Shown here one piece after another: positions 1,857 through 60,959 of a DNA stretch of 64,000 nucleotides (within the stretch, counting starts at the first letter, position 1; the number at the start of each line of letters is the position of its first letter). The DNA is from Ianthella basta (Eukaryota; Porifera; Demospongiae; Verongiida; Ianthellidae), in assembly GCA_964019415.1 (NCBI GenBank), contig OZ025878.1, positions 3,972,512 through 4,036,511 on the forward strand, in the 5' to 3' direction. The translations under genes were made by a program, and so were the position numbers. Under the pieces are notes generated by a model. It had not been told where the DNA came from, searched no databases, and saw nothing but the letters and a program-made list of their open reading frames with translations.

Positions 1857-2458
1857 GCTTGCTGCATTAATTGGTTTTATTGCAGTGAAACTCTCATCAA
1901 TGATTTTCTTGGAAAGACATCTGGAGGTAGTGGTAGCACTCTCACTCTGCTAGCTCTTGCTCATGCTGCCTACAGCATGCTTAACTGTCACAAACAGCTT
2001 GCTGTGTTTCTGTCTCTCCCTCCCTAACTCTCCTCTTCTTTCACCCTCTCCTTCTTCCTCACTCTCTATCTGTGCGTGTGCATGTGTATGTATGGCTGTG
2101 TGTGGTATGTACATATGTGAGAGAGTGACACAACTGTACATGTACAAGTCATGTACATATGTGTATGTGTTTAAGCAGCATCATGAGAACATGCAAGCTG
2201 TGTATGTGGTTTCGGTACTTTTTGCATGTTGTACAGTTGTGTGTGTGATTGGTACAATTGTTAGTCTTCAGGCATCATCTTGAAATGAGTGCACTAGTGT
2301 TCATTGTACGCATAATTACCTAACATTGAATACGGAGCAGCAAATGAAAGGCACATGAAGTTTGAGTTGGGCAGCAGCTTAATGAGATGTTCAACTTACA
2401 CTACTCATTTGACACAAAATATTTTATTGGTAGCTGTATTTTGGTGTCTTCCCTGTAG
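1857..2458. other. Low-complexity intron or intergenic stretch
   Basis: Pyrimidine-rich followed by (TG)-rich sequence; the frames here are composition artefacts of Cys/Val and Leu/Ser runs. The right end, CCCTGTAG at 2451-2458, is the acceptor of the first recognised exon of gene A. Confidence 0.4.
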
Positions 2459-2683
2459 CTGACGAGGGTTCCGATTGGAGCATAACAAATGGAACAACAC
2501 TACGCTTCACTGAGTCTGAAGAAGAGAGATCACGATCTACCGTCCCAATTTTTGTTCAAATTATAAATGACACAATGGCTGAAACCAGAGAGTCTCTCAT
2601 TTGTATCCTATTGGCTACTGGAGTTGATGAGGTACAAGCAGTGGAGCCGAATCAAGTGACAATAACCATACAGGATGATGATG
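2459..2683 (+). CDS. Gene A exon: Calx-beta domain 1, C-terminal half
   Basis: 75 codons, phase 1 at both ends, acceptor CCCTGTAG and donor GTTAGC. It carries the Calx-beta C-half signature: a D-W start, F..SEEE, V.I.D....E..E.F/L.C.L, and a terminal QDDDG calcium-ligand motif. The N-half exon that must precede it is not found in the window, which is the main evidence that the gene is open on the left. Confidence 0.8.
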
Positions 2684-5600
2684 GTTAGCATACATAACTC
2701 ACATAAGGGGCATAGGGAATGAAGGGTTTCTGAGGGTTTCAGGAAACCCTGTCAAAATAATGGTAGCTAGCAATAACTATAAAGAAGTAGAAGAAGTAAG
2801 TGCTGCAAGCTGATCTAGTGGTTGAGTCAGTGTTGTTGCTGGCCATTTATGTTGCTGGTACACTAAAGAAGGTAGTTTTCACTCATCTTTGTAGTACATT
2901 CTTTCTCCCAAGATTTTAGCTTTGAATGTTAACCTTGAGTTATGCAGCCATTCTAGTGGTGTAGTACAACAGCACCACGCCTTTAATTAAAGTAAGCAAT
3001 CCCCCATAGAAACCCCTAGCTATGCCCTAGCTCATAAACTGCACACAAGGCACCAGAATTGAGCTCAAAACTTAAATAGCCAAATCATGCAATGTGATGT
3101 GTTTAGCTCATGCATGACTGTAGCATTGTAATCCATACAACTGAATACCATGATAACACTACACAGGTAATCCATCATAGGGGGATTAGGTATATACAAA
3201 TGTAAGCATATTCATGCTTATGATCATGTGATGTACAGTAGGTCAACATTCATTGGTGATCCATCTTTCTTGCACTTCCTTTGCTAGAGTTAGAGGTAAA
3301 ATGGGCAAAAAAGAAGTACATCTACAATGAGAATGATGGATCAGCTACAGTAGAGCTTGTGACAACATCTGAGTTTGAATTCAGTGTCAACATAGTTGGG
3401 ATTCCGGGAACAATTACTGAAGGCATACCTGGTGTATTAGAATTGTCTACAATGATGATAGAGAAAAGGATGGGCGGCTTCACCAACATCACAGTGGTCA
3501 ACTTCGAGGGCCAGGTATATGGAGTTGGCGAAGTTACTCGTAAGTTTTCCTGCTGCATGTGCATGTGATGAAAAGTTAAGTTAAAATTACTCAGACAATA
3601 TAACAGTAGTTTGGCTATTGTAAACATTATACTTTAGTTTGTGTATTACTAGCAATATATGGCAAGTGGCAATATGGGCCACTTGCAATAAATCAATGAC
3701 TGTAATATTTTGAAGATATAATTTGGCTGTCTCTACTACCACTAGGATTCATAAGTGGATCTGATATCAGAATGGTGAGAAGAGAATTCCCGTTCAACGA
3801 TATGCAAAAATCATCTAAGGGTAACTTTAGTATTGTAAATGATGGTATCTGTGAATATGACGAATTGGTAATGGCAACTTTTGAATTTGGAGCTGAAGTA
3901 GAAAACACTTTCAATGCAAGACAAGGAGATCCAAATGTGACTTACATTGTGATCAAGGATGATGACAGTGAGTTACGTAGTTATACTCTTAATTGATTTT
4001 TCTCTTGTACAGTGTTAAGAAAAATTCAGCTTAAGAGACTCAAGCATACTGTACATCTGAGTATAACACAGGTTTATCCAGGGCATTTCAGCAGACAGAA
4101 CATCTTCAGATACCACTCTTCAGTGGATAGCTTTGTAGCTTAGCTCACAGATTTGGTGGAAGCTCTGCTATAAAATGCATTGAATTTGCTTTGGATTTGT
4201 AATTTGGAGTCCCTTCCTTGGACCTCTAGCTGCTATTCCATTCAGAGCTCATATCACATCAATCACTGCACACAGTTGGTTAATCTGGATCAGTATTTAA
4301 GAAAGTCCTGTCATTTTGCAGCATTTGCTAGCCTTCCATGTTACATATATGACTTTCCCTTTATAGGTGTTACTATAGGATTTCCATACGAAACAAGTAC
4401 AGTAGCAGAGAGTGCAGGCTCTGTTGATATTCACTTGAGAATTGATGGCAGATTTTTTGTCCCTATTACTGCAACAGTGACATGTGTGTCAGACAATGCA
4501 ACTAGTGAGTTCTTGTGTGCACTCTTTAACAAAGCTAATGCTGTTCATTATGCTTGTTTCGCTTTTGTATCCTTCACTTACAGTGGGCATGGATTTCATC
4601 AATACAACAGCCACTGTCACTTTTCCAGTTGCTGCAGCTGCTAATTTAGCACAATCTCCAACTAACTCAACTCCAATCACAATTAAAATCAACAATGATA
4701 GTGTTCCTGAAGAGGAAGAATGTTTCACTTGCTCAATTACAAACTACACAACACCATGCAATGTGCGTTTGGGCAGCATTACCAAGACCAAGATTTGCAT
4801 TCCAGACGATGATGTTCAAGGTGCAAAGTTAACACTCAACAATATCTATTCCGTGCAGTAATATATTCTGCAGCAGATATTCCACAGGGTGTTAACAGCA
4901 ATTTTGTAACAAGGGTGTGAATTCATATGTAAACCATGCATACTGACTTTACTTACCTTGAATTATGTTGAGGCTTATATTGCTTACAGTACATTGTACT
5001 CAATTGTGTGCTTTACCTTCACTGTAGTGAGATTTGACCCTGACCTGTATAATGCCAAAGAGGGAGTAGATGATCATGTCACAATCACATTGGTAGCTTT
5101 GCAAGATCATGAGTATGCTTTCAATGTCACGGTCATTTCAAAAGCTGGTACAGCTGCACGTAAGTTGCCATGTGGGCCATGCCAGATTCTGAGATTGCCT
5201 TGTGCATCTAGTTTGTGCAGAATCTACACATTCTTTACATTTTGTTATTAAACAATTTGTCTATCATCAATTAAATAATATTTACAAACACTTGCTTTCA
5301 TACTTGCTCCTGAATTAGGGGTTTCTTTGCATAGGCCACAGGTTTATACAGTTCAAGTAGCAAACATATGGGTGAACAGTATAAATTATAACAGTATAAT
5401 AATACAATATAATGCAATGTATTGGCATTTGGGATGCCTTGAAGATCAAATTTTGACACAATCTGAGAAACACCACCTATCTAGTGGGAGGAGACTGCAG
5501 TGAGCATCCAAGACAGAAGCCCCAATAAGCTGTTGTTGTAGGAGGTAATCCAACCTGGTTGCTCCGGACCCCCACCCTCCCCCCAAAAGGAATGGGGTGC

Positions 5601-8600
5601 TGGAGCTGCCAGGATGTTGTATGATGGCCTTGAAGGGCAAAGAGGGCAGGGTCAACCAGAAATGTTCATCACTTCTAGTTACATGGCTTTGATGACCCAA
5701 ATTTCAGTGACAATGAATGATGCGGGATGCACGGCTATACGGCTATATGATGCGTTAATTCAAAGTTTTATCTGCAATACCTTACATACAACTGGTCAGG
5801 CCAACTAACTGAGCAACTTTCATTTGGCAAGTCCAACTAGAAAAGGAACCAATATGTTGTACAACTTTAGCATCACTTTGCTGTTTTTGTCTTGCCAGCA
5901 TGATGCCTTTGTACAAAGACCAGACACTCTCAAACTGAATGTATGATTGAACCTCTGCTATTCTGGTTTTGGAGACTTGATCTTCAAGCCACCACCAGCT
6001 CCAGGCCATTGCGAAATAAAATAGTCTTTGCGTACATGGTGACAACCTCTAGGCTGCTAGTGCAGTATTTTGGGTTTCTGCACTATTAACCAATCACATT
6101 TTTGACCTTGATATACAGTACTTGTTTCATAAGGTTTAATAACTTTCTCTACTTTCTTCATAATTCTGTACTTATAATGAATACTCATTCATTGTCTGAA
6201 TATGTGATGTTACACAAATTATACATAGTGAGACAATAGTGCAATAGGAAAAAATTGAACTTAAGGCAAGAAATGCAGTACTTCCACAGCATATTCACAT
6301 TGAGCTAGTTCCCTCTTTCCATCTGCCTTCAGTTGGTGAGGACTACAGTGGTGAGACTTTCAATGTGCTCTTCCCAGCTGGGGTCAACATCGCCAGCTTC
6401 AATGTAACCATCTTGGATGATAGAATTGCTGAATGTCCTGAGGAGTTCTTCCTGGATCTGAAGATCCCACCAGCAGCTCAACTCATGGGTGTTGCCAGGG
6501 TGAAACCTTACACTGCTACAGTGAACATTACAGATGAGGACGGTGATTGCTCCTCCATGCACTGTGTTGTGCTTCATACAGTGAAGACAGTATGCAGTAC
6601 TTATTTGTGAGCCATTCTTCTACATTATTACCTGAAACAGGCCTCATGCACAGTTTGCAGCATTGTATGTTAAATTCATTTGTATACTAAGCATCATTCA
6701 TGTCTATCTTCTCCATCCAGTCATCACAGTCAGTTTCAGTCCTCAAAATTACACTGTTCCTGAGGGCACTCCAGCTGAACTCATGATTGTATCAGATGAG
6801 CAATCTGTGAAGAACATCACAGTCACAGTGACTACCATGGACATCTCAGCAGAATGTAATTGATATAGAGTGTTACCCCAACTGCTGAATTAGTATACAA
6901 ATGACTGTTGCTTTTCTATTTGTACAGCCCCTGGTGACTACATGAGTGTCATCACTGATGTCACTATTGTAGCTGGTCAAAGGATGGGCAACAGGCCAGT
7001 GTCAGTGCCAACCAACCAGGACACTATTAAGGAGAATAGTGAACACTTTAAAGCTATTCTCAGCCTCCCAGAGAGACCTAGTAATGTGGTGGTTGGGGTG
7101 GACACTGCATTTGTGACCATTATAGATGGAACAGGTGAGCATAGTATTATATGGTGCTGTGACAACTTCCCCACACATTATTGCCTTCAATCATGCACAT
7201 GTGCAGGTTTTCTGTAGCAATCACTCATGCTTTCACTTGTATGTATAACTGTATGGTTACTGAGTGAGAGCTGCACTGAGGTTGCAAAGTTGCAGTTTTA
7301 CAGTAGCATGAAGCTGACTCCTAGCTGTTCCATTGAACTGACTCCTGGTGGTGACACTTTTGGCACCCTTCTTTGCTCTGGCACACAAAGCAAGTGCTTC
7401 CAATGCCAGTGTTTCTGACTCAAAGCAATTTTAATGTGTAAATATTCTCCCAAAGACATGTGTAAGTAGCTAGCTAGCTGCATAACTACCTTATATAATA
7501 AGGTTCAACACTTAGCTAGCCTTCGGTCCACAACATGTAATATGCTCTACAAAGGCTTGCATTGGTTACAACTAAGGGTCGAACGAATACTCTATATTAA
7601 GTTCGACTATTCGTGCTTCCACCGGAAGTGATTACTAAATATGGCCGTCTTCTGTGGAGTGATTACCGTAAATGGGAGGAGCAAGTCGAATGAAGAGCAG
7701 ATAGGGCGAATTTGGCCTAACATAAAGCATTTTTCTGCAGTTTCTGCGTAATCCATATAAGATAAGAGGTGTTTTGTTCCGTAGATATCGACTGATTCAG
7801 GAGCAAAGCGAGTTTCATGTGGTTGGGGGCCATTTTTTGACGTCATTAAGCGTCATCAATATTCAAGCGAATAAAATTATCCTTCGAATATTAGGCTATC
7901 GAACGAATATTCGAATATTCGGTTATTCGTTCGACCCTTAGTTAAAACACGGTTGTTTATATGGCTACACATAAACGAAGTATGCAATTTACTGTACCAT
8001 CCACGAATCACCTTCGACCTCCATGAATAACCTTCTGCAAGGTCATCTTGTAGCACTTGCCATACGCATGAAGACTAAACCTTCCTTCTTCCTACACACA
8101 AATCGGAACAAGGTGGTTTTGAAATTTGTCAATTATCAAGAACTCTACATGGCATACAAACAAGGCTAACCTGCATTCTGTAGAGAACTTGCTTCAGTAC
8201 CCTGCATAGTAAACGGAGCTGGCTCCTGCTGCTTGTGGGTTGCTTGCTGGTTCTCTACTGCAGAAAGTTGCTGACTGCTTCTAAGAGATCTCAGCATGAC
8301 CGAATCTCTGGATTTCTTGGCTAGTCTGTTGGTTCGCATATCTTCCGGCATCTTCTAACTGCAGTGGTAGCTGGTTACAAAAAGCATGACAACAAACCAT
8401 AGATATGCTGAGGAAAATATAGATATGCTGAAGAAACCATAGATTTTCTGAACGTAATTGGCACATTCACACAGGTCATGCATTCTTTGTGTTTGCATTG
8501 CCTCCTCAGTTCCAGTGAGATTCAACCCAGACATCTACTTTGTGACAGAAGGAGTGGACACCCATGCTATCATCACCTTGGAAGCTCTTGTAAACCATAC

Positions 8601-11600
8601 GTTTGACTTCACTGTCACGGTGATCACACGAGATGGAAGTGCTGCACGTAAGTATACAAGGGTGTCACACATGACATCATGCATTGTTACTCACACTGTG
8701 CAACTATAGGTGAATAATCGAAGAAAATCATTGCAAAATGTAATAATATACCTTGTAAGTGATATCAGTATACATGATAGCACAGATACTGGATGGTAGA
8801 CTATCTGTTGTTCCATTGAGCTGCAGCCAACTCTGATCCTAATGTATTCTCCACAGGTGTCTCCGACTATCTGGGTGAAGTGTACACGGTCTTGTTTCGT
8901 GCCAACGAAAACACAGTCAATTTTCAAGTGCCCATTGTGAATGATGAAGTGGGCGAGTGTCCTGAGGATTTCTTCCTGGATCTGGTGGTACCAGCTGCAG
9001 CTGCTGCTATGGGTGTCATCAAGGGGATACCTGACAATGCTACAGTCAACATTGCAGATGAGGATGGTGAGTGCCATCCCACTGCCCTTATTCCGGTAGC
9101 TTGCTATTCCAAACTACCTGCTTGTACTGTACATGGGTCAAAGAGTAGGCTAGTACCAATGTTAATCCACACTCATCTCACATTGACCAATTAGCTTGCA
9201 ACCTCTGGTTTCACTCTGGCATTTATACCAAAGCAGCACTCATTCATTTCCACTGCCAAGCCCACAGGAGGTCTGCTACAAGGACAGAATGAAACATTGT
9301 CAGTAGTGTGTTCTGCAGTCTGTGGATCCCAAGATCTTTGAAAGCAGTCTAAAATCAGCCAAGGATACTGTACAATTCATATATTCCTTGCAGTACTCTG
9401 CCGTCACATAAGATTCCATATTCAGCCAAAGGATAGACTCTGATATCCTTCTTCATGCATGACACCATAAATGTACCTGCACACTTGGTGCCGTGTTCTC
9501 TCTACGTTTGTCACTCCAATAATTCGTCACTTGAGAAAAACCTGTCCAAACGCATTGTAATTGCTGACAAAATTTCTGGCTTTCTAATATTCGTCATATT
9601 ACTCTAATTACTCCCCCCTCCTCCCCCCCCCAAATTTGTCAGATGCGGACGCTACAGAGAATGCTCAGAGAACTCCCAAATTTCACTTGCCTGACCCACA
9701 TTGATGAACATGTGTTAATAGAGTGATACTCATAAAAAGTCTAATGAAAGAATCTTCTGCGAGATACAGCTCTGCTACACAGACAGACTTTGTGAATTGG
9801 CCACGCTTGATGCTCTCCTTCTGTTTGCTAGGCTCATTATCATCTTTCTTCATATTTTGCCATGTATCCAAGGAACGTACAGTGCTTCTAGAAGAATTTA
9901 AAGTAATAGTATGGTAGTAGCTTGCCTAACTGTTCTCCCCTGCGAGATACAGCCCCAAATATAACAGAAGTCAAACGATCTTTTGGCCAATAACGACACG
10001 GACAGAGACTAGCAAATTATGACAATACCAGTTAGGGTAGATTTTTAGCCAGCATACTCCTCCTCCAGGTGCAAGGTATCATGTACATTGTCATTCAGAA
10101 TGTTTTGTATTTCAAAGAGCAGTTAGCAAAGCATTTTGACAGTTTAGGTAGGATTGCTTTCACTGGATGACTGGTTGGTCTGGAAACTTCAAGCTCTTGT
10201 AAAACCAACAGCCTATTGCATTTTGAGTATCTTTCAGGCTATCAGCAATGCTGCATCCCCAACTATCTGAACTATTTAACACACATAGAAAATTACTAGC
10301 AAGTAGTTTGAGTTCAGGGGCACCCCAGCGCCCCACGAGTTTTTTAACTCATTATACTTGCTAGTTACAACATCATGTATCCTTTCATCTCTATCTTCTT
10401 CATCCAGCTGTGACAGTTAGTTTCAGTCCACAGAACTACACTGTCCCTGAGAGCAGTCCAGCTGAACTCATGATTGTCCTGGACAAACAATCGGCAAAGG
10501 ACATTACTTGCAATGTGACTACCATGGATATCACGGCTCAATGTAGGTGAAAATGGTAGAACTATTGCATTGCCTATATGTGACTTCCTTTCACAACCTT
10601 TGACTATTACAGCTCCCATTGACTACATTGGTGGTGCCTATCCAATCACAATTCAAGCTGGTATTGTGAAGGCCATCCTCCCAGTGCCAACCAACAGTGA
10701 TATTATTTGTGAAGATGATGAGTACTTCAAAGCTACCATCACCTGTGACCCGACTCCAATTGATATTGAAATTGGGCCAGATGCTTTTGTTACCATCACT
10801 GATGCAACTGGTAAGTGCACAGTAATACATACCTTCACATACCTGGCACATTGTGCAACTTACAAAGCAACTTGCCAGTATGATTCATTTAGCACACTCA
10901 GCCTCGGCTCAAAACATTTAGTTGACTCCCCTTTCACTGTCCACTTCTTGAGATCAGTTACAGCAGTTTCCAGAATGCAATGAGGCATTTATGCTTATGC
11001 ATCTATACTCCATATCATCTTACCATGGACACTCATTCTCATAGCACCCTAGTTGTTTAATGGCAAGTGCGTAATACTAGTGTTTCACAGCAAAATGTTA
11101 TCTCTTGATCTGTACAATCTTCACACAGTTCCTGTACAGTTCAACCCAACTGTATACACTGTAACAGAGGGTAATGGTATTGTCACTGTCACTATGGAGG
11201 CCTTGAGGGACCATGATTTTGAATTTGTGGTCAACGTGAGCACCACTGATGGAACAGCCAAAAGTGAGGAAATCAATTTATCTGGCATCTTCTACATATT
11301 GTGATTTCATTTATGAATGATGTACTCCTACTGTATGCCAGGTGGATCTGATTATGGTGGTCCTCAAATGATCACAGTGACATTCCCAGCTAGAGACAAC
11401 AGTGTTGATTTCACTATTCCCATTGTCAACAACGAAATTGCCGAGTGTCCAGAGAACTTCTCCTTGCAACTGGTGATCCCCCAGAGTGCTGCTGACTTGG
11501 GTGTTGTTACAAAGTCTGATGATACTGCACTCGTGAACATCAGGGATGATGATGGTAATGTAACGAAGTGTTACTTGGTTGGTACTTAGAGCCACACTTT

Positions 11601-14600
11601 TCCACAATGGCTGCCTTTGTTTGCCACAGCTGATACGTACATATCAACTGTGTGAGAGTATGAAAATGTCAATGTGCTAACCCCACATATAGTTAACATA
11701 ATTATAAGAGAGGTTGGTCGGTGTCTCCAGGGAACATTGGGAGAGCACATGTCACATGCACACCTCCTCCAGAGGGTGGCGGTGGCAGTACAGAGAGGGA
11801 ACGCAGCGGCAGTGTTGGGGTCGGTTGCCCTTATTGACGATTAACTGTTGCATGCAATCTTGATTGATAGTGTAGGGTTGTTGTATCCTTGCAATTAATT
11901 ATATTACGTAAGTGCATGATTTCTCTTCTGATTTAGTTACAAGATTACTGATTAACACTGTTATGTTAATGTTATAATTATTATAACATGTACATATAGT
12001 TTTATGACAATACAGTGCAGTTGTTTCTTACGTCAGACAGGTGGTATATGTTAATTCTTATTCTTCAGAGCAACTTTGAATTACTTGCATTATGGCCCCT
12101 GCTCTCTTTTCTTTCATTCAGTTGTGACCATCAGTTTCAGTCCTCAGAACTACACTGTCCCTGAAGGCACTCCAGCTGAAATCATGATTGTCCTGGACAG
12201 AGAATCTGTGAAGGAAATTACATGCACTATGACTACCATGGACGGCACGGCTGAATGTGAGTTGAAGGTGCTTCGGTGTAACAGAAATAATGCCCGTATG
12301 ATTTTCTTTCACACCTTTTGACCATTGCAGCATCCAATGACTACATTGGTGGCACATTTCAAGTCACTTTCCCAGTAGGTGTGATGAAGGTCACTCAGCA
12401 TGTGGAAATCAATACAGATACTTTTTGCGAGACTGATGAGTACTTCAAGGCAACCCTCAGCTGTGATCCAACACTTGTTGCTACAGCAATTGGTCCAGAT
12501 GCTTTTGTTACTATCACTGACGCAACTGGTAAGAGCACAGTAATGAAGGGTACTTTTGTTAGCCAAAGAAGGCAAGGAGGAATAACAAGGAAGTATGGAC
12601 TTTTGTAGAAGGACACAAACTAATAAGTACTGTAATGTTGGGAATATGATGTTCTGCATGAATGAACTGCCTCTAATACTATTGACTGGAAGGTTGTAAG
12701 TGAAGCTAACCATGGGCCGGCGCCAATGCCAGTTAGCATTACCAAGGGCCATAACTAATGCAATGTTAAAGCAACAGCTGCTATCATAGCAAATGATCAC
12801 CATCAACTCTCGTTAAGATCCCAGTACTCCTATACATAGGGTGTAAAATTGGTTGCTCTCACCATCAAGGCCTCTGCTAGCTACGTACCATCAAAACTAC
12901 ATAGTGTATGGTCCAAAGCGCATGGAAAATGTAGCAGCAGTAGAAAATACTGTAAATAATTATGTATCAATTCAGCACAATTTACACTTGTGAACAAGTA
13001 AAATTCAAAGGAGTAGAAAATATGTAACTTTGCAGAATTCACATATAATGCAAAATCAGCACTCCTGATCATGTATAAAATGAAAGCTTGAATTACATAC
13101 CTTAGACATGCTAGTGATTAATAAGAATAGTACTGACTATGCATTTATTATTATATGACATTGTGTTGCTTGATCCGCTTTACACTGCTATATTTCTTCC
13201 TATAGTCCCAGTGCAGTTCAACCCCACTGTGTACACAGTAACTGAGAGAGATGACAATGTTGCCACGGTCATGTTGGAGGCCCTGAGAAATCATGATTTT
13301 GACTTCATGGTCAATGTGAGCACAATTGATGGAACAGCCAAAAGTGAGAAAAATCAAAATCTGGTATCCCTAACACATTATGGTAATATTTATAAATATG
13401 CTCTCCGGCTATCTGCTAGGGGAATCTGACTATGACATCCCTGAAATGATCACAGTGATGTTCCCAGCTGGACAGAACAATGTTGCTTTCAATATTTCCA
13501 TTGTTGACAATGAAATTACCGAGTGTCCAGAGAACTTCACTTTGCAACTGGTCATCCCCAAGAGTGCTGCTGATTTGGGTGTTGTTACAAAATCAGATGA
13601 CACTGCAGTTGTCAACATCATGGATGATGATGGTAAGAAATGCATACAGTGTATTGTGTGGCTAGTGTGTGCTTGTGCATGTGTGTGCATTAGATTTCCC
13701 TATGTAATTACTGAGAAATTCCCCAGTTACTAACTGTTTATGTATTTCCTAAGGCGTTGGGAGTAAGAGGAAGCGTTGAGAGAATTAACCCTACCCTAAG
13801 TGCAATAGCTAGCTCTAACCTAAGTGCAAGAGTGACATTATGGATTCCAAAATGGTTAGTCATGTCACCTTGCATCCTATACCGTCACTGCACTATCTAA
13901 GAGAAAGGGTGAAGATCCTATAGTTTGATTTTTAGTGAACTCCTGCATCAGGTTTCTATCAACCAATACCAAATGCATTAGACTTCATCACAGCAATCTA
14001 TTGAACATCTAGCGTGCTGCTTGGCCTCCTTTGGAAGAACGAAGAGAATTATGCACATGTGCCCACAGAGTTTCATGGAGACTTTCCATGAGGCAATTTG
14101 TACTGTTTAATTGCTCACTTTGCAGACAAGATATTACTTGCTTGAATGGTGGTCATTCATGAGTTATATATATATACAACGATGATATTTGGAGGAATGT
14201 GCATGCTTGTTTGCAGCTGTATACGTATGAGAATATACAATACATGTCTGACACAGACATGTACATTCTCTAGCAATTGCCTTATATTTAGTTAATACTA
14301 CACATTACATACTGTACATGAGAAAAATGACATTTGTAGACATGTAAAAGTCTTCACTAGATATCCAATGAAATTCATGGTGATAGTGAGCACAGGACAG
14401 TGCATCTGTGGATTCTTCTATTATGCATATGCAAACACCTTGCAAGCCTTGATAGTCACTTTGTCTCAATGAACCCTGAAAATCTATGCATCTCAATGAA
14501 ACATAGATTCAGCACTAGTTCTGACCATGAACTGTGTGACACTACAATAGTTCTGTTTGCATTGTCTTTAGTGCACAAAGATAACTTTGCATATACAAAG

Positions 14601-17600
14601 CATGCATTGTATCAGTTACCATTCTCTTTCATTTCTTTTTAACATAGAGCTTCTCATCTCATTTGATCCAACTGGGTACCAGGTAAAGGAGAATGAAGGG
14701 CCAGTCAACATAACAATCAGAGCTTCCAGGCTGGCAGAGTTTGCCTACATTATCTCTCTAAGCACGCATGATGGATCTGCTATTGGTTAGTGCAACCAGA
14801 GCTCATAGTGTTTCAAAAGCAGAATGTAATTTGAAATTGCACAACTCCATTGATTGCACTTACTACATGTATATACAACATTGCACTAGAAGCACCTTCT
14901 AGTCAATCTACCCTATACAGCATCTGTTCCCTGATTATTTGTAGTCCTGTTCACTATATATAGGCCAGCGGTTCCTTATATAAGTCGCTCTAATCGTCAT
15001 CATATGCACTGCCATAATTATATAACTATACCATGTGTCCTGTTGCATCAATGTACATAGCTATGTGTGTACCTCCTACAAATGCTGAGAGTGTTCATTT
15101 AGTAGCCAGGTGATGTATTTGTGTACAGCTGTACTGTATAGTCTCTTTAAAATATGATATGTTTCTATTCCTCACTTGCAGCCAATACTGATTATGTACC
15201 AGGACCCTTTGAAGTAGAATTTCTCCCTGGAACAACCCATGTAACCCAGCCAATAAGTATTGTGGATGACAATATTCTGGAAAACATAGGAGACAACAAT
15301 GTGTATAATGGTCTAGAGCATTTTCTTTGTAGAATGGACATTACTGAAGACTTATTGCAAAAGGGCGTGATGGTTGAGACCACTGAAGCACGTGTAAATA
15401 TCACGGACAATGATGGTATGAATGTTGGCACAGGGCATTCAGTCTTGTATGTTCCTTATATAGAGATTTATAGCAATTATGCAATACAACATAAGGTGCA
15501 GTAGGGACATCCTTGTGCCAAGATGAAGTGCTGGTAGAGATTAGTAAACATTCATGATCATGATTAGGGTTCATCATTCGGATCTGAGCTTCTATCAACT
15601 ATAGAATGTCAACATCACAGCATGCTGTCCAACATGGTTGATGTATACAGCATCTCAATCTCATTTTGTCATCGTGCCATGCAGTTAGACTAGATAAAAT
15701 CTGCCAGACTAGGACTATTTTTCTTATATACAGCAATGGCTAATATTCACTATTTGACTAATATTCACTATTTGACTTACCCTCACAGTGGTGGTATTCT
15801 TTGAGAGGGAGGCATATGAAACCGATGAGAGTGTCGATCCAGATAGCATATCTATAGTGGTTCTAGCACAAGGTGATCTCTCGTCTCCATTCACCATCCC
15901 ATTGGAAGCAACTGGTGGGACTGCCACAAGTAAGTCATTATGTATATATATGCCAATTTGCACCTTATTTACAACCATGAACTTCAGATACTCATGCAAT
16001 CAGTGTTGCAGTTCCTCTGCAAGTTTTGCAGTGTTGAAGACATCATTCTGCACTAATAATATGCATACTATAATGCTCTATTGCTCCAGCACTGTTCAAT
16101 TCATCCATCATTGTACATACTATTTGCTATTACAGTCATTTATTTTTTGCATTATGCCAGGAGACCTTGACTACAGACCACTTCCTGACAATGTGATGTT
16201 TGCATCTTCAGTTACATCTATGTCATTCCCATTTGGACCTATCTGCGATCAACAAAGGAACGAAGGATTAGAAACTGCTATACTGGCAATCTCTGTGCAA
16301 CAAGCAGATCAAGATCATATAACTCTTGGTGCCCTAAGCAGCACTACTGTAACTATCAATGGTAAGAAACAAACAAACAAAGCATCTTTTTTGTAGTTAA
16401 TGAAACCTGTTTAAGCTGGTCACTGTTTAAGACAGCCACCTCTTTAAAGAGCCAGCCTCCCTGGCCCCAAATAGCACTAAAGCATTGCAATCTACCACTT
16501 ATAAGTAGCCACCTCATGATCTAGGTCAATTAGAACTGGCCCACAGGCAGCTGTCTTCACTGTAATACTTTTACAAGCCTTTGTATGCATAACAGCCCTA
16601 TGAGAATTCAATAGCTGACTTTCTCCAACTATGCAATAATTAGTATTACTCAATTATGCAGTCATCATGTCTTCTTATCTCTTTCTAACAACACAGACAC
16701 CTGCCCAGGTACACCAGTTATACGTGTCAATGACACTGTAATAGCTGATCCTGTCTTCACAGTTCCCATTAGCACACAAAATTTCTTTAACAGTACTGAA
16801 GGATTCCCAATGTGCTACGATGTTCATGGGAGGAATGACACATACTTCAATTTTGTGTCTGACAACTGTGCCTCGGTGAATGCCTACTATGCCCTTGCTG
16901 ATGATCCCAAAGTTGGCAACGTGATTAGGGAGATTGGTATTGTAGCAACAGACAACGACAATGACTGTCACTATATGAGAGTTGCAGTTGTTAACAATGG
17001 GAGCTGTGTTGCAATGCTTGATGGACAGGTACCACAGTCTGGTAGATACAACAGCAGTGGCATTACATTTAACCACAAGAATGGTTTTGTGAGGATTTCA
17101 GTTCCAAACTGTGCACCACAGACAAATCTTGAGCTTGTGATGTGGATTAACTGCAAGAAACTTGTTTTGGGACACCGTTCTAGAGTTGAGCAGCCCCTGA
17201 TCAAGTTTGTCATCTGCCGTGGCCTAAGTCACAGACCCCAAGCCCATGGACTGATTGGTGAGCTACTCCTCAGTGTGAGTATAGTACTTGTACAGGGTGA
17301 AATATTTACATAGCTGATTGTAGCAGAGATCAATTCCATACACTCCCATTGCAATGGCAGTCTGCACAATTGCTTATTTCATTCATAGTACATATCTGCA
17401 TCCTCACTATAGGTCAGTTCTGGGGTGTGCCCTTCACAGTGGAGCCATGGACGACTGCAGACTACTATAACCTGACCATGTGCCCCGAGAATGGTCCTAA
17501 ACGCTCCTTTATTGCCCATCTGGGTCACTCTACCTGGTCATTGAAGCATGCCTTTGCCATGCCTGACAGCAAATGCCTTTACGTGGGGAACAGCCAGGGT

Positions 17601-17723
17601 GGACGTGATCCTTTGTCCGTTGATTCCACCATTGAAGGAGACTGGCCAGACTACATTACCACTGGCCTGTATGACATAAAGTGGAAGTACAACCGGTACA
17701 CTGAGGATACCTGTCCCCCTTAA
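2459..17723 (+). CDS. Gene A: multi-Calx-beta aggregation-factor-like protein, 5' partial
   Basis: Twenty-five exons can be read with GT..AG borders, and every junction is phase 1. Exons: 2459-2683, 3288-3539, 3746-3967, 4367-4504, 4584-4820, 5028-5159, 6333-6542, 6721-6855, 6928-7134, 8510-8647, 8857-9066, 10408-10542, 10613-10810, 11129-11263, 11342-11554, 12122-12256, 12331-12528, 13206-13343, 13420-13632, 14648-14785, 15182-15415, 15789-15929, 16161-16361, 16697-17257, 17413-17723. They sum to 5057 nt, which is 2 nt of a split codon plus 1684 codons and a TAA stop. The product has a C-half plus eleven complete Calx-beta domains, many N-x-S/T sites, and a C-terminal domain of about 290 residues resembling both the sponge Wreath domain and the inter-alpha-trypsin inhibitor heavy-chain C-terminus. 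By family knowledge it would be a secreted, calcium-binding adhesion proteoglycan core. The start codon and signal peptide are not visible. Gene B converges on it from the other strand. Confidence 0.82.
2684..3287. other. Gene A intron, 604 bp
   Basis: AT-rich, with no second exon or clear mobile element recognised. It ends in a pyrimidine-rich CTTCCTTTGCTAG acceptor. Confidence 0.5.
3288..3967 (+). CDS. Gene A: divergent Calx-beta domain 2 (exons 3288-3539 and 3746-3967)
   Basis: Both exons are phase 1 at each end (84 and 74 codons). The first exon is nearly twice the usual N-half length (44-47 codons elsewhere). It begins normally (VKWAKKKYIYNEND, then a beta-strand pattern) but continues with a Gly/Pro/Thr-rich segment (IPGTITEGIPG). 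The second has NDGICEYDELVMATFEF and ends in DDD. This is the least typical of the complete domains; it may have a loop insertion or have lost the strict fold. Confidence 0.65.
4367..4820 (+). CDS. Gene A: Calx-beta domain 3 (exons 4367-4504 and 4584-4820)
   Basis: The N half has 46 codons with GFPYETSTVAES.GSVDI and a V.ITATVTC strand. The C half has 79 codons with NNDSVPEEEECFTC and a terminal DDD. The C half ends with GATGATGTTCAAG before donor GTGCAA rather than the usual GATGATG before GT, so the calcium-ligand end carries extra residues (DDDVQG). The intron between the halves is only 79 bp. Confidence 0.75.
5028..6542 (+). CDS. Gene A: Calx-beta domain 4, type X (exons 5028-5159 and 6333-6542)
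   Basis: N half 44 codons (VRFDPDLYNAKEGVD..., V.ITLVALQDHEYAF). C half 70 codons with VLFPAGVN, a VTILDD strand, AECPEEFFLDL and the terminal DEDG. Its closest relatives are domains 6, 8 and 10. The two halves are separated by a 1.17-kb intron that holds unrecognised sequence. Confidence 0.85.
5160..6332. other. Gene A intron within Calx-beta domain 4
   Basis: 1173 bp. The middle part (about 5440-6050) is less AT-rich than its surroundings and has longer open frames on the minus strand, one at 5446-5700 and one at 5782-6045. I recognise no protein family in them. This may be old mobile DNA inserted into the intron. Confidence 0.35.
6721..7134 (+). CDS. Gene A: Calx-beta domain 5, type Y (exons 6721-6855 and 6928-7134)
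   Basis: N half 45 codons, starting VITVSFSPQNYTVPEGTPAE with an ITVTVTTMD strand. C half 69 codons with DYMS, a Q.G...V.VPTNQD segment, NSEHFKAIL and a terminal IDGTG. The type-Y end is DxTG instead of D(D/E)DG, so a calcium-ligand acid is replaced by Thr; this is shared by domains 5, 7 and 9. The halves are 72 bp apart. Confidence 0.85.
7300..8351 (-). mobile_element. Unnamed mobile element, copy 1 (in gene A intron)
   Basis: A frame at 8166-8351 on the minus strand begins MPEDMRTNRLAKKSRDS and continues with a basic (M/L)R.LR..QQLS pattern. The frame at 59597-59872 on the plus strand begins in the same way (TKKSRHSEMMRALR..RQLS). Both copies also contain GGAGYCAGCTC-type repeats and a shared downstream block with TGCTTCCRATGCCAGTG, here at about 7390-7420. 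Order and orientation agree between the copies, so they are two insertions of one element on opposite strands. Copy 1 is interrupted by a smaller inverted-repeat element at 7569-7943. Element class unknown. Confidence 0.6.
7569..7943. repeat. Small terminal-inverted-repeat element (MITE)
   Basis: It starts AACTAAGGGTCGAACGAATA (7569-7588) and ends with the reverse complement (about 7924-7943). Near the right end it is rich in ATTCG/CGAAT palindromes. At about 375 bp without a transposase frame, it is a non-autonomous DNA transposon, perhaps hAT-like from the GGGTCGAACGAAT terminus. It lies inside another mobile element. Confidence 0.65.
8510..9066 (+). CDS. Gene A: Calx-beta domain 6, type X (exons 8510-8647 and 8857-9066)
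   Basis: N half 46 codons (PVRFNPDIYFVTEGVDTHA). C half 70 codons with NTVNFQVPIVNDEVGECPED, FFLDL and the terminal DEDG. Closely related to domain 4, supporting duplication of an X-Y pair. Confidence 0.87.
9067..10407. other. Gene A intron, 1.34 kb
   Basis: No exon recognised. It contains a C-rich run near 9605-9635 and the words GCGAGATACAGC at about 9759 and 9940, suggesting old repeated DNA, but no coding family is visible. Confidence 0.35.
10408..10810 (+). CDS. Gene A: Calx-beta domain 7, type Y (exons 10408-10542 and 10613-10810)
   Basis: N half 45 codons (VTVSFSPQNYTVPESSPAE, then TCNVTTMD). C half 66 codons with DYIGG, VPTNSD, EDDEYFKATI and a terminal TDATG. The ending is the Thr variant of the type-Y domains. 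Confidence 0.87.
11129..11554 (+). CDS. Gene A: Calx-beta domain 8, type X (exons 11129-11263 and 11342-11554)
   Basis: N half 45 codons (VPVQFNPTVYTVTEGNG). C half 71 codons with DYGGPQMITVTFPA, NNEIAECPENF and the terminal DDDG. Very close to domain 10, so these two come from the most recent duplication. Confidence 0.88.
11555..12121. other. Gene A intron, 567 bp
   Basis: It contains a short GC-rich patch at about 11705-11830 (GGTGGCGGTGGCAG, then CGCAGCGGCAG) unlike the AT-rich rest of the introns. It has no open exon-like frame with matching phase-1 splice sites. Confidence 0.35.
12122..12528 (+). CDS. Gene A: Calx-beta domain 9, type Y (exons 12122-12256 and 12331-12528)
   Basis: N half 45 codons (VTISFSPQNYTVPEGTPAE). 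C half 66 codons with DYIGGTFQVTFPVG, CETDEYFKATL and a terminal TDATG. Nearly the same as domain 7, with the same 74- to 75-bp-scale inner intron. Confidence 0.87.
12529..13205. other. Gene A intron, 677 bp
   Basis: No exon or mobile element recognised. The right edge is a CTTCCTATAG acceptor. Confidence 0.4.
13206..13632 (+). CDS. Gene A: Calx-beta domain 10, type X (exons 13206-13343 and 13420-13632)
   Basis: N half 46 codons (PVQFNPTVYTVTERDDNVA). C half 71 codons with DYDIPEMITVMFPAGQN, TECPENF and the terminal DDDG. It is the last member of the alternating X-Y series. Confidence 0.88.
13633..14647. other. Gene A intron, 1.0 kb
   Basis: AT-rich sequence with only short frames. Nothing recognised apart from simple TATATA runs near 14166. 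Confidence 0.4.
14648..15415 (+). CDS. Gene A: Calx-beta domain 11 (exons 14648-14785 and 15182-15415)
   Basis: N half 46 codons (LISFDPTGYQVKENEGPVN). C half 78 codons with DYVPGPFEVEFLPG, a VTQPISIVDDN strand and a terminal DNDG. The acidic turn region is longer than in the X and Y types (a Gly-Asp-Asn-Asn insertion before GLEHFLC). Confidence 0.85.
15789..16361 (+). CDS. Gene A: Calx-beta domain 12 (exons 15789-15929 and 16161-16361)
   Basis: N half 47 codons (VVFFEREAYETDESVDPDS). C half 67 codons with DLDYRPLPDN, FPFGPICDQQRNEGLETA and the end TVTING, which lacks the acidic calcium-ligand triplet of the earlier domains. The last Calx-beta unit before the C-terminal domain may therefore not bind calcium in the usual way. 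Confidence 0.8.
16399..16566. repeat. Tc1/mariner-like MITE (family with CAGTGAAACCTGTCTAAGA ends)
   Basis: Begins (A)ATGAAACCTGTTTAAG and ends CAGCTGTCTTCACTGTAA, a decayed terminal inverted repeat. The interior shares GCCAGCCTCC, CACTAAAGCA, TGCAATCTAC and GAACTGGCCCACAGGCAGCTGTCTT with better copies at 35150-35330, 38569-38748, 43255-43434 and 43947-44126. The TA-flanked CAGTGAAACCTGT terminus suggests a Tc1/mariner or pogo-type non-autonomous element. It sits in the last intron before the C-terminal domain of gene A. Confidence 0.65.
16697..17723 (+). CDS. Gene A: C-terminal Wreath-like / ITIH-C-like domain (exons 16697-17257 and 17413-17723)
   Basis: The exons hold 187 codons and 103 codons including the TAA stop. 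Features in order: Asp-Pro at 16747-16752 within NDTVIADPVFTVPI; MCYDVHG; FVSDNCASVN; IREIGIVATDN; LDGQ; a VRISVPNC strand; LVMWINC; IKFVICRG; then HGLIGQFWGVPF across the splice; CLYVGNSQGG; and IEGDWPDYITTGLYD near the end. This order matches the C-terminal region of inter-alpha-trypsin inhibitor heavy chains (DPHF, LCFNI, VNGQ, GxLGI, HGLLGQFF, CWFxHNNGxGLIDG, TDYIVP.LF), recalled from memory. In sponge aggregation factors the same position is the Wreath domain. Its predicted job is ring formation and possibly glycan attachment. Confidence 0.78.
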
Positions 17724-28565: not shown

Positions 28566-54316
<25,751 letters not shown>

Positions 54317-54390: not shown

Positions 54391-56399
54391 CTCGTTCAGC
54401 TCTTGTGCGTCATATTTTAGCTGTACCAAAATTCTGCCCAGTGACGTAAGCAGTGATGTGCCCGCTGACCAATCAATGCTGAGGTCACTACTCCCATCAG
54501 TAACCGACTCGTAGACTTGTATCCAAAGCACATCTGCTGTCGCAGAGTAAGGAATACACTTCCCTTACCTTTTGTGTGCATTTCCACATCATTATTTTCA
54601 TTGATTTATGGTATTGGCAAAATAATTATTGTAACAGATAAGGTTGTGTGCTCCATTGCCTGAGATTTCCCTACTAACAGTTCGAAGTGCCTGGGTGGCA
54701 GTCAGGCACATGGTCCACTGAGTAACTGGTTCACATTCAGTTGGACTCGTTGTTGCATGGTGTTGTTGTTGTGTTGTTTCTGTCCAGTTGGAGAGAGGGA
54801 GACTATACACATTCATCCACCATTAAATCTGTCCATTGCAGATCTTGAACTCGTAGTGAACCCCAACCCAAGTGCTCACTGTCAGAAAATGTTTCCTGTC
54901 GGCATAGTCTATGCTGTCAGTAGTGTGCATCTTTACTTTGCCCTGCCTATATCCATAACATAGGTTAACTATCGTACCTTGACAGTCATATTCATCAGTA
55001 GCTTAGTCTACTTACGACAGATCCTATCTTCTTACACTTCCCATTTGACACAACTTACACCCACCCACCACCCCCTAGGATACCCACCCCCACACTATGC
55101 TAAACATCCTGTAGTGCCACCCCTGTCCTACATCCACACACTTCAATCTATCCTCACACAATTCCCCATCCCATACCCCACCTTCCTCACTTATACCCCC
55201 CATACCCACTCCTTATGCACTATAGCCTCACACCAATTATTCTACCCTTTACTATCACCCGTCAGAGAAGCCAACAAGGTAACATGGGAAAGTAACCTTA
55301 CCAGAGCAGTTGGGTGTGAGTGCATAATCAAATAACCTCTCTCAGGGGCACACAAGCCAGACCAGTAGCCTGCAGACCATCTACCATATTTATCTTACAC
55401 ACACATCAAAGTATGCAAGTGGGAGACAGAGGAATTGTTTTGCCTTTCAAGTTCACTTAGCTATTGTTGGTGCATGCTTGCACAATGTACTATTGTGACA
55501 TGTTGATTGATTGGGACTAAATGCTTTCACTGACAATGGCAAAGAACTGTTAAGACAGCATAGAAGTTATTATAGAATATTATATTACCCGCTAATTGTG
55601 CTTTCCATGTCAAATACAGGCTGGTTCTGCAGTGTTCTCTTCACTGTGATACCATTGAGTGACGACAGCGCAACTTGACAGGGATACTTCTGCATTCTGG
55701 TGTTAACAGCAGTACAATCTGTGCCAGTACTGATCATTCTACTTGGACACTTAAACATGTCCCCACTATCTCAGGCAGGTGTCTCTAAGTAGGGAATAGT
55801 CAAGGTGGTCATTCAAGAGGACTATAAGACTTGCATTGTCAATAGTGGCCTGCTCACCACAACTTGGACATACGCATATACACCCATGCTTAGGCCTATA
55901 ATTTTAGCCTAAGGTATTTATATTATCCATATTGGTTAAATCATGTGGGAATTTGGTCAGCAGATAAACAATTAATATAAGATGCCTGCTGCTGTAGTTT
56001 CAGACAGCTAAATTTACAGTATATAACATCGTCCTGCACAAAATGGGAGATTATTTAAAGTGCACAAGCAAAGATTGTGGTTCAACTGGCTAATTATGAC
56101 TACAGAAATATCTGAATTGATGCACCTGGTTTCACTTGTTGCTGCTGCTCTTCCTTTCCTTGCTTCTGACATTGTCATGTGCACAATACCAAACTTTCAA
56201 TTATACTTTTGCTACACTGTCGCCAGTTGGCTGTTAACACTCAGTATGATATCCCATCCATATTTGACGTGTGAGATTCTTAACATATTTTATTTATTGT
56301 TAATGCTTTGATATATTTTGTACTTGCATACAAATTGACTCAATGTCATATGTTGGAAAATTGGCTTAAATAGTTTGATAGAGGCACACAGCTGCTTTG

Positions 56400-58683: not shown

Positions 58684-60959
58684 TCAATTGCACTGGGAGG
58701 TAAACATCTCGTACTTGTAATCCGGGTCAAAGAGGCCGCTCACAATGTATTCATCGTAGGTTCCTTGAATAACTGGGTCAGACAGGGAGGTAACTTCGTA
58801 CAGCAGCCCACCCTGGGAGTTACCAGAATACAGACACATCTGACTTTTCAGGTCCCAAGTGCGGGGAGACTTCCAAGCAAAGAACCTCCTTGTGCTGCCA
58901 TCTGAAGCACTGACAGTGACAGCATAGTGTCTTGGATTAGGAGGAATCTTGTCCTCTGCTGTCACAGTGTACCTCTCCGCCTCCACTTCGACATTCCAAA
59001 ACTGCCCTATACCATTGCAGGAATAAAGACAAATGGCATAAGGCACTCTATGAACAGTATCAGTTGCCACAATATTATGTGTAAGTTCTAATTTCACGAG
59101 ATTATATGTATCTTATTATAATGGAGCTAGGCCGATTTTTTGTCTGCACTAATCTCGGGAACCGTGCGTAGGGTTAGCAGCTAACGCGGTCTGAATGTCG
59201 AAGCGCTATCCGGAGGGTGTCTTCGGCTGGGTTTGTCTGCGAAAGCTTGCGAAATGAAGGTTTTGCGCCAACTCGCCATACGTTACTATGGGACGCCATT
59301 TTTGTTTTACGGAGGAAAGCGAAGTAGATTACGGAATTCGAAGCTAATTCCTTTGTTACACAACTCCTCCTGGGAAGATGGTGCGACGGCTTCTTTGCTA
59401 TAGTTTTAGCACAATGTAGAAGGCTGTGGGTGATATAAGCTATATAGCGGAAAGCGCCGTCTTACGCGAGTGAAAGCGGCTCGATGGCGAAAGGATGGGC
59501 TCAAGTTATGCGGTTACAGGGTTGCGCAATAATCTCATGACGTCATCGTAATGCGTTGCTTCCCACAAAGCAATTTGCAACCGTTGCAGTGCGCATATGC
59601 CGAACATTAAGGGCAACACCGAACTAACCAAGAAGTCAAGGCATTCAGAGATGATGAGAGCTCTTAGGAACCAACGACAACTGTCAGAACTCCAAGACCA
59701 TCACTCAACCTTCACTCACAGGAGTCAGCTCCAGGGGAAAAGCAAGAGCCAGCTAAAGGGGAGCCAGCTCAAAGGACCAACCAGGAGTCAACTCATGACA
59801 ACCAAGAATCAGCTCAAAGGGGCCATCATGAGTCAGTTTTGTTTAATTTGGAGGGCAATACAGGACACTTGACCTTGCAGAAGGTGATTCATGGTGGAAG
59901 AGGAGTCAGCTGCATGCAACTCTCTATAGCTAACTGCAACTGCAGCATCTATAGCTATCACTCAGTAGCCAGGTTTGGAAGTGCTTTGCATCAGAAGCAC
60001 TGGCATCGGAAGCACCTGCGTTGGGCGCTGGAGCAGAGGAGGGCGCCGAAGGCACCCTTCTCTGCTAGTAATCATAATAATAGTACATTGGACAACATTT
60101 CCACAATGTGTAGCCATTATTCAGAGGTACAGCTATACATTGCAACTTGCATAAAATGTGATGTGACACAAGCAGCCATTTGTCCCACAGACTTAAAGTC
60201 TTGTACAAACCACAGAGGCAAACAGTAACTTACCAAATACAGAATGGCAAGAAATTTGGTTGGAATTCATTTTGGTGGATTGCTCGATTTTATGGCATTT
60301 GGCGGATTTCACTTTGGCAGTTGGGCAAGCCACATATTTGATATCATGTAAGAACTGGTAGTTTGAAATATTGGTGAATTGCTCTCATTATCACAAATCC
60401 ACCGGATTAAGTTTCCCACATGAGCAATGATGCATGTCATCATTTCTCAGACACATGCTAACAATACACTTACCAATAAGACCATGGGAAGTTGGACGCA
60501 GACTGAATCCTCTGGCAACAACAAACTTGATCATTGCCTGTTCTCTGCGGACTTCACAAATTACCCACATGACCAAATCAGTGTTTTCACAGTTTGGAAC
60601 AGCAATTCGGACTCTGTTTGTGCGACGTGTCACACTAACACCATTTTGATTGTACACTGTCACAACTTGTCCTCCTACCCTTGCAGTACACCCTTCCCGA
60701 TCTACTTCAATCTGCTGACACGTTCCATTGTTGTCCTCTGCAAGAACACCTATCTTGCTGATGAAGTTACCATTGGATGGGATGATCATTGGAGAATACA
60801 GAGCATTAACAGAGACGCAGGTGTCTGAAATTAGGTTGAAATTTTGGTTGGGGCTTCCAAGGACTTCGTAGCACAGAGATAATTTACTTCCATCTTCATC
60901 AATAATCACTGGCACTTCATACAGTGGGTCTCCAATGATGGTGTCATTGCACCTGAGTG
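58684..60959 (-). CDS. Gene B': duplicate of gene B's C-terminal domain (exons 60959-60474 and 59006-58684)
   Basis: The exons hold 162 and 107 codons plus the TGA stop. They are open throughout and carry the same motifs as gene B: GDPLYEVPV with Asp-Pro at 60930-60925, HGLIGQFWNVEV, and YDEYIVSGLFD. About ten residues differ from gene B over about 265. The acceptor of the first exon is at a slightly different place (LRCND instead of TTIRCND). No EGF or Calx-beta exon is found between 60960 and 64000. It is therefore either the end of a gene that starts outside the window or a duplicated gene end without its own start. Intact frames favour recent duplication or continued use. Confidence 0.65.
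59107..60070 (+). mobile_element. Unnamed mobile element, copy 2 (in gene B' intron)
   Basis: Compared with the empty intron at 29000 in gene B, about 0.96 kb is inserted here, between TATATGTA on the left and TAATCATA on the right, possibly at a TA. The insertion holds a plus-strand frame 59597-59872 (MPNIKGNTELTKKSRHSEMM, then GGAGTCAGCTC-type Gln/Leu/Lys repeats). It also holds a CpG-rich upstream part and a tail with TGGCATCGGAAGCACC, all shared with copy 1 at 7300-8351. No transposase domain recognised. Confidence 0.65.

Follow-up and report, generated by a model that had tools for sequence, protein, structure and literature searches.

Wreath domains of sponge aggregation-factor-type genes as probable distant homologues of the ITIH C-terminal pro-domain with a potentially cleavable Asp-Pro site

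Sponge aggregation factors are split into an arm protein and a ring protein. The C-terminal domain studied here we take to be the Wreath domain of these factors, in whose description the names MAFp3 and MAFp4 are also used. Grice et al. 2017 reportedly presented a clustered gene family encoding a Calx-beta arm followed by a C-terminal Wreath domain, and are said to have described this domain as sponge-specific. Literature searches on the Wreath domain, on MAFp3 with MAFp4, and on sponge aggregation factor, Wreath and Calx-beta found no papers, Grice et al. 2017 lying outside the search; aggregation factor, Calx-beta and sponge are named together in PMC10815962 and PMC11229196. For inter-alpha-inhibitor, passages of PMC4661386 state that each heavy chain (ITIH) is ester-linked to chondroitin sulfate through its C-terminal Asp, and a section of PMC7170535 gives the length of the pro-domains removed from ITIH1 and ITIH2 as 239 and 244 residues, respectively. 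In ITIH3, ITIH5 and ITIH6, the GDPH motif lies in a predicted domain of VWD-like topology, according to excerpts of Yeshaya et al. 2024 (PMC10880436), which also report that in FCGBP substitution of Asp by Ala or Asn prevents cleavage and substitution of His by Asn inhibits it. An earlier note on the DNA analysed here had proposed that Wreath is homologous to the ITIH C-terminal domain, and that its Asp-Pro undergoes ITIH-like cleavage and glycan attachment.

The window, a stretch of 64,000 nucleotides from Ianthella basta, contains the Wreath genes A, B and B′. Translation and splice sites define the Wreath part of gene A on the forward strand as exon 1 (16697-17257, from Asp-Pro to HGLIG) and exon 2 (17413-17723, from QFWG to the stop codon TAA), with the junction between HGLIG and QFW. 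On the reverse strand, gene B has exon 1 at 29875-29378 and exon 2 at 28888-28566, up to the stop, and gene B′ has exon 1 at about 60959-60474, its 5′ end placed by an AG acceptor. Since tblastn located the second exon of B′ at 59007-58687 (96% identity to B), this gene possesses both exons across a longer intron, and a version of B′ devoid of exon 2 was ruled out. Its Wreath intron (59007-60474) exceeds that of B by approximately 1 kb, and the similarity of both introns ends, by eye, near 60070, which suggests an insertion. The translations confirmed an ordered ITIH-like motif series in all three genes, as had been claimed: DP-x-Y/F, LCYEV or MCYDV, SVN, IGV/IGI, HGLIGQFW, CLYxGNxQGG and I-x-G-x3-(D/E)YI-x3-L(F/Y). 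The Asp-Pro, likewise attributed beforehand to each gene, was verified by codons, namely GAT CCT at 16747-16752 on the forward strand in A (IADPVF), and GAC CCA on the reverse strand at 29834-29829 in B and at 60930-60925 in B′ (IGDPLY in both). The window also carries a partial remnant of a gene-A-like Wreath exon 2 on the forward strand (55714-55809; tblastn E 4.3e-5, 52% over 33 residues) and, by eye, reverse-transcriptase-like open frames on both strands at 48737-50725.

Upstream exons assigned to gene A from the list of open reading frames occupy 2434-16393 of the forward strand within presumed gene limits, and several of them are, by eye, Calx-beta-like repeats with DDDG or DEDG end; one, at 6335-6541 (C11:3978846-3979052), was matched by Pfam Calx-beta in a genome search scoring 150 of 969 candidates. 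The succession of Calx-beta-like exons and then Wreath around gene A fits a demosponge aggregation-factor cluster. One contig, C11, carries at approximately 0.8-8.1 Mb the majority of the Wreath matches listed, together with many of the top-scoring Calx-beta ones, in a large dispersed aggregation-factor cluster. Throughout the 209-Mb genome at least 36 matches were obtained with gene B exon 1 as a query (in a separate tblastn comparison this exon found gene A at E 6.8e-37 with 40% identity), and a three-copy profile applied to the loci gave at least 26 copies with both Wreath exons, which were joined at HG-x-x-G followed by Q-[FYL]-[WR], with the break as in A and B and splice sites inspected within the window. 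No relatives of Wreath were found in viral or prokaryote genome collections.

The profile of 18 Wreath copies, aligned by hhalign with a profile of ITIH1-3 (letters reconstructed rather than database-derived; 3/3 recognised by Pfam, the first with E 6.9e-70), gave a significant match of 98.5% (E 2.7e-15) over 226 columns, in which the Asp-Pro of Wreath was placed on that of ITIH1-3. Its score of 106.3 was approached neither by 200 column permutations (at most 24.0) nor by the reversed profile (15.6, 0.2%), and the match was kept after masking of HGLLGQF (96.5%), of the D-P region (98.2%) or of both (95.1%), falling to 67.7% once the C-terminal motif was masked as well. The Wreath HMM found the reconstructed ITIH1-3 with E-values of 1.4e-13, 2.1e-10 and 6.2e-10, the best of 3000 shuffled decoys having 0.061; with the ITIH1-3 HMM as a query, 14 of 18 Wreath copies surpassed the best decoy (0.032), the exceptions being gene A (E 0.2), L013, L040 and L041. 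The Pfam family ITI_HC_C (PF06668) matched the same number of scanned copies, 14/18 (E up to 10, best E 2e-5), and four other families matched one copy each. In nine ITI_HC_C matches with positions examined, the start in the protein exceeded that in the profile by 47-56, which corresponds to one register. For gene B this family was the sole Pfam match up to E 10 (E 0.033). The number of residues following Asp is 258 in B and 272 in A, compared with the 239 and 244 of the ITIH1 and ITIH2 pro-domains. These data support the proposed homology, and at the level of the family Wreath may be regarded with high confidence as a distant homologue of the ITIH C-terminal pro-domain.

The similarity is less pronounced when copies are taken one by one. 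The match to PF06668 suggested by the earlier note is recurrent, but none of the 14 matches attained the 27 bits of the Pfam cut-off (24.7 at best, for L001, and 14.2 for B), so by Pfam's rule Wreath is not a member of ITI_HC_C, nor is it an ITIH heavy chain. When the whole genome was searched with ITI_HC_C, the sole match was to a Wreath copy (E 1.29), and an archaeal control yielded one chance match. Gene A alone had no Pfam match up to E 10; because it is unrecognisable on its own, its link to ITIH runs through the family, via the gene B exon 1 match. The divergent copies L040/L041 taken alone did not match the ITIH profile, and ITIH4 letters from a PDB alignment gave no significant match to the Wreath profile, the best stretch lying in the expected register. 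Neither gene B nor the 18-copy profile retrieved anything relevant from PDB by sequence, and NCBIfam gave weak unrelated matches for the 18 copies, glycl_HYPD in two (best E 0.0096) and each of two further families in a single copy.

Structural predictions add the fold to this picture. The AlphaFold model of gene B exon 1, built with three window sequences, consists mostly of strands (mean pLDDT 60, pTM 0.62), and its first 17 matches in PDB are all RGMB-complex, VWF, MUC2 or MUC5AC chains, with E 4.9e-3 to 3.5e-2, probability 0.99-1.00 and query TM-score 0.43-0.52; at rank 18 the probability falls to 0.60. The RGMB-complex chains are presumably RGMB, judging by the titles of the entries and the lengths of the chains, and RGM has a VWD-like domain. 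For the exon-1 model of gene A (mean pLDDT 53, pTM 0.55), ranks 1-5 were RGMB-complex or MUC2 chains, followed by a mixture including unrelated low-probability chains, and neither exon-1 model had a PDB match at E 0.001 or better. A viral fold library offered nothing useful, its one match at probability 1.00 being a Hokovirus protein with E 5.3e-3 but rmsd 14. At the N-terminus of the models, pLDDT is below 50 for 39 or 49 residues, Asp-Pro among them; as this segment is of low confidence, the place of Asp-Pro in the beta1-beta2 turn is deduced from the profile alignment. By sequence, no Pfam VWD match was obtained in the 18 Wreath copies, and against a VWD profile of this sponge (19 of 21 domains extracted, two with stops being left out) Wreath scored 19.6, 60 permutations reaching 19.4, and ITIH scored 20.4, 60 permutations reaching 25.8. 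These sequence comparisons were negative. One reconstructed ITIH row touches Pfam VWD at E 0.15; that row apart, the VWD link relies on predicted folds. The exon-1 models are VWD-like, in agreement with the topology reported for the ITIH domain in the excerpts of PMC10880436, and the predictions are best read as placing both Wreath and the ITIH pro-domain among VWD-fold beta-sandwiches.

The conservation of the Asp-Pro was followed in 32 copies with a readable N-terminal part; L001, which coincides in location with L022, and the L031/L043 fragment were omitted from this tally, to which frame-broken L026 contributes its N-terminal piece only. The dipeptide is present in 22 of them, as GDPL (13), ADPV (3), GDPV (2), GDPM (2), SDPL (1) and IDPL (1), including copies just 37% identical to gene B, and the remaining ten have GGPL (2), QSTV (2), QSTF (2), GKPK (1), GKPQ (1), QSNV (1) or TQCR (1). 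In a tree built from 26 copies plus ITIH1-3, four changes are needed to account for the label without D-P, and D-P is retained by the earliest branches (L001, L018, and L013 with L024/L028), so that it is best regarded as ancestral and lost several (about four) times; ITIH joins this tree on a long branch, with a program warning of long branches meeting. Asp-Pro is thus probably ancestral to the sponge family and, from the alignment of profiles, likely positionally homologous to that of ITIH. The assumption that it is an ITIH-like processing site stands as far as the position is concerned; the processing itself fares worse, as His follows Pro in none of the 22 D-P copies, its place being taken by L, V or M, Asp is missing in 10/32, and among 190 columns ranked by conservation Asp takes only the 44th place and Pro the 27th. 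Considered against the FCGBP mutants, the absent His means that cleavage without it is possible, but would be unusual, and self-cleavage at the Wreath Asp-Pro bond in vivo appears, by analogy, rather doubtful.

Canonical VWD domains of the same sponge provide a reference for this position, since GDPH is visible in 38 of 42 examined out of 64 matches (30/30 and 8/12). The four without it, L074-L077, are weak matches on C11, of which L077 stops short of the site and L074 is located just upstream of Wreath L006 on the same strand. Three Wreath copies devoid of Asp-Pro (QSTV/QSNV) lie within approximately 2.5 kb after a canonical GDPH VWD exon on the same strand, forming the pairs L057/L029 (C16:3932255-3937268), L059/L025 and L056/L027. 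An EGF-like exon, recognised by eye between VWD and Wreath in the third pair, suggests VWD-EGF-Wreath proteins with the GDPH upstream.

With a probability of roughly 0.82, we consider Wreath to be a VWD-fold homologue of the ITIH C-terminal pro-domain whose Asp-Pro is equivalent, ancestral and a possible breakpoint between arm and ring. On this reading, the Asp-Pro is situated at the start of Wreath, at the position of the cleavage site in ITIH heavy chains and in VWD domains of the GDPH type; Wreath would act as a C-terminal assembly module linking the Calx-beta arm to the remaining particle, and the Asp-Pro bond could be opened between the arm and ring chains, the part matching the ITIH pro-domain being presumably retained here as the ring protein. 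Convergence, i.e., a beta-sandwich and short motifs held in common without shared ancestry, could be argued from the failure of both Wreath and ITIH to match the sponge VWD profile, from the unrecognisable gene A and from the Pfam cut-off left unreached by every copy; the collinear full-length profile match that persists with the best motifs masked and the ITI_HC_C matches in 14 of 18 copies make it highly improbable. A far more serious competitor, to which we would give even odds, accepts the homology and the VWD fold and regards Asp-Pro as an uncut structural remnant, with arm and ring separated by a protease elsewhere. It accounts for the lack of His in all 22 D-P copies, for the replacement of Asp by G, K, S or Q in ten others, and for four losses on the tree in a sponge whose canonical VWD domains mostly retain GDPH; it is less at ease with the persistence of Asp-Pro in copies of 37% identity and with an N-x-S/T sequon which, in the 14-residue stretch that closes with the Asp position, tracks D-P (20/22 versus 1/10 of the others), possibly through shared ancestry. 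The Fisher p of 1.8e-5 for this association is not a true probability, because related copies are non-independent and some upstream letters are possibly intron.

The fullest transfer of the ITIH scheme adds to Asp-Pro self-cleavage an ester bond joining an acidic glycan to the Asp that cleavage would leave at the C-terminus of the arm. Positional homology of the Asp-Pro and the ester-linked heavy chains described above favour it, and the CHGN family, which has a role in chondroitin synthesis, is represented in the genome by 29 matches with E no greater than 1 (4.8e-109 for the best). Excerpts of PMC7828597 concerning other sponges mention about 20 large glycans per aggregation-factor particle, and these same excerpts characterise the glycans as unlike glycosaminoglycans and resistant to glycosaminoglycan enzymes, which counts against the scheme. 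So do the missing His, the absence from the genome of any Link module over the cut-off (one sub-threshold match, E 0.635) and the distribution of VIT, none of whose 31 genomic matches lies within 600 kb of the listed Wreath matches. ITIH-like processing in its entirety is hence improbable; an Asp-to-glycan ester linkage in Wreath proteins is unlikely to the same degree, ordinary N-glycans near the Asp-Pro being a simpler source of sugar. Only a slim chance is left for the variant in which precursors would cut themselves at the Wreath Asp-Pro independently of His, thereby parting arm and ring, and the activated Asp of each arm would be captured by one large acidic glycan; if true, coupling of protein to glycan through an ester would be older than the split between sponges and other animals.

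Returning to Wreath as a VWD-fold homologue of the ITIH pro-domain, this reading supplies Wreath with a probable fold and with a relative among vertebrates and narrows the splitting of aggregation factors into arm and ring to one testable bond, for which copies that naturally have Gly, Lys or Ser instead of Asp are ready controls. Should the bond be cleaved without His, requirements of VWD-type Asp-Pro autocleavage would need revision.

Among described systems, the ITIH pro-domain (PF06668 with the preceding DPHF segment) resembles Wreath in being collinear, of similar length and in carrying Asp-Pro at its start, and its reconstructed letters share with Wreath LCY/F, VN, IG, HGLxGQF, I-x-G-x3-Y and a C-terminal Cys motif with N and G. 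They differ in the His after Pro (DPHF), which Wreath lacks, in the Pfam ITI_HC_C cut-off, below which Wreath scores unlike ITIH, and in the upstream parts, VIT and vWA in ITIH and Calx-beta-like repeats in gene A. GDPH VWD domains of FCGBP, MUC2 and SUSD2 are like Wreath in predicted fold and in the site at the domain start, whereas a match at the level of sequence is absent: D-P is followed by L, V or M in Wreath and by His in GDPH VWD, and HGLIGQFWN in Wreath stands where sponge VWD copies have GLCGN- or GLLGN-type motifs. The Wreath of sponge aggregation factors, as reportedly described by Grice et al. 2017, has the same layout of Calx-beta arm and C-terminal domain in a clustered family; relative to that description, the link of Wreath to ITIH and VWD is an addition, of which an earlier publication is possible.
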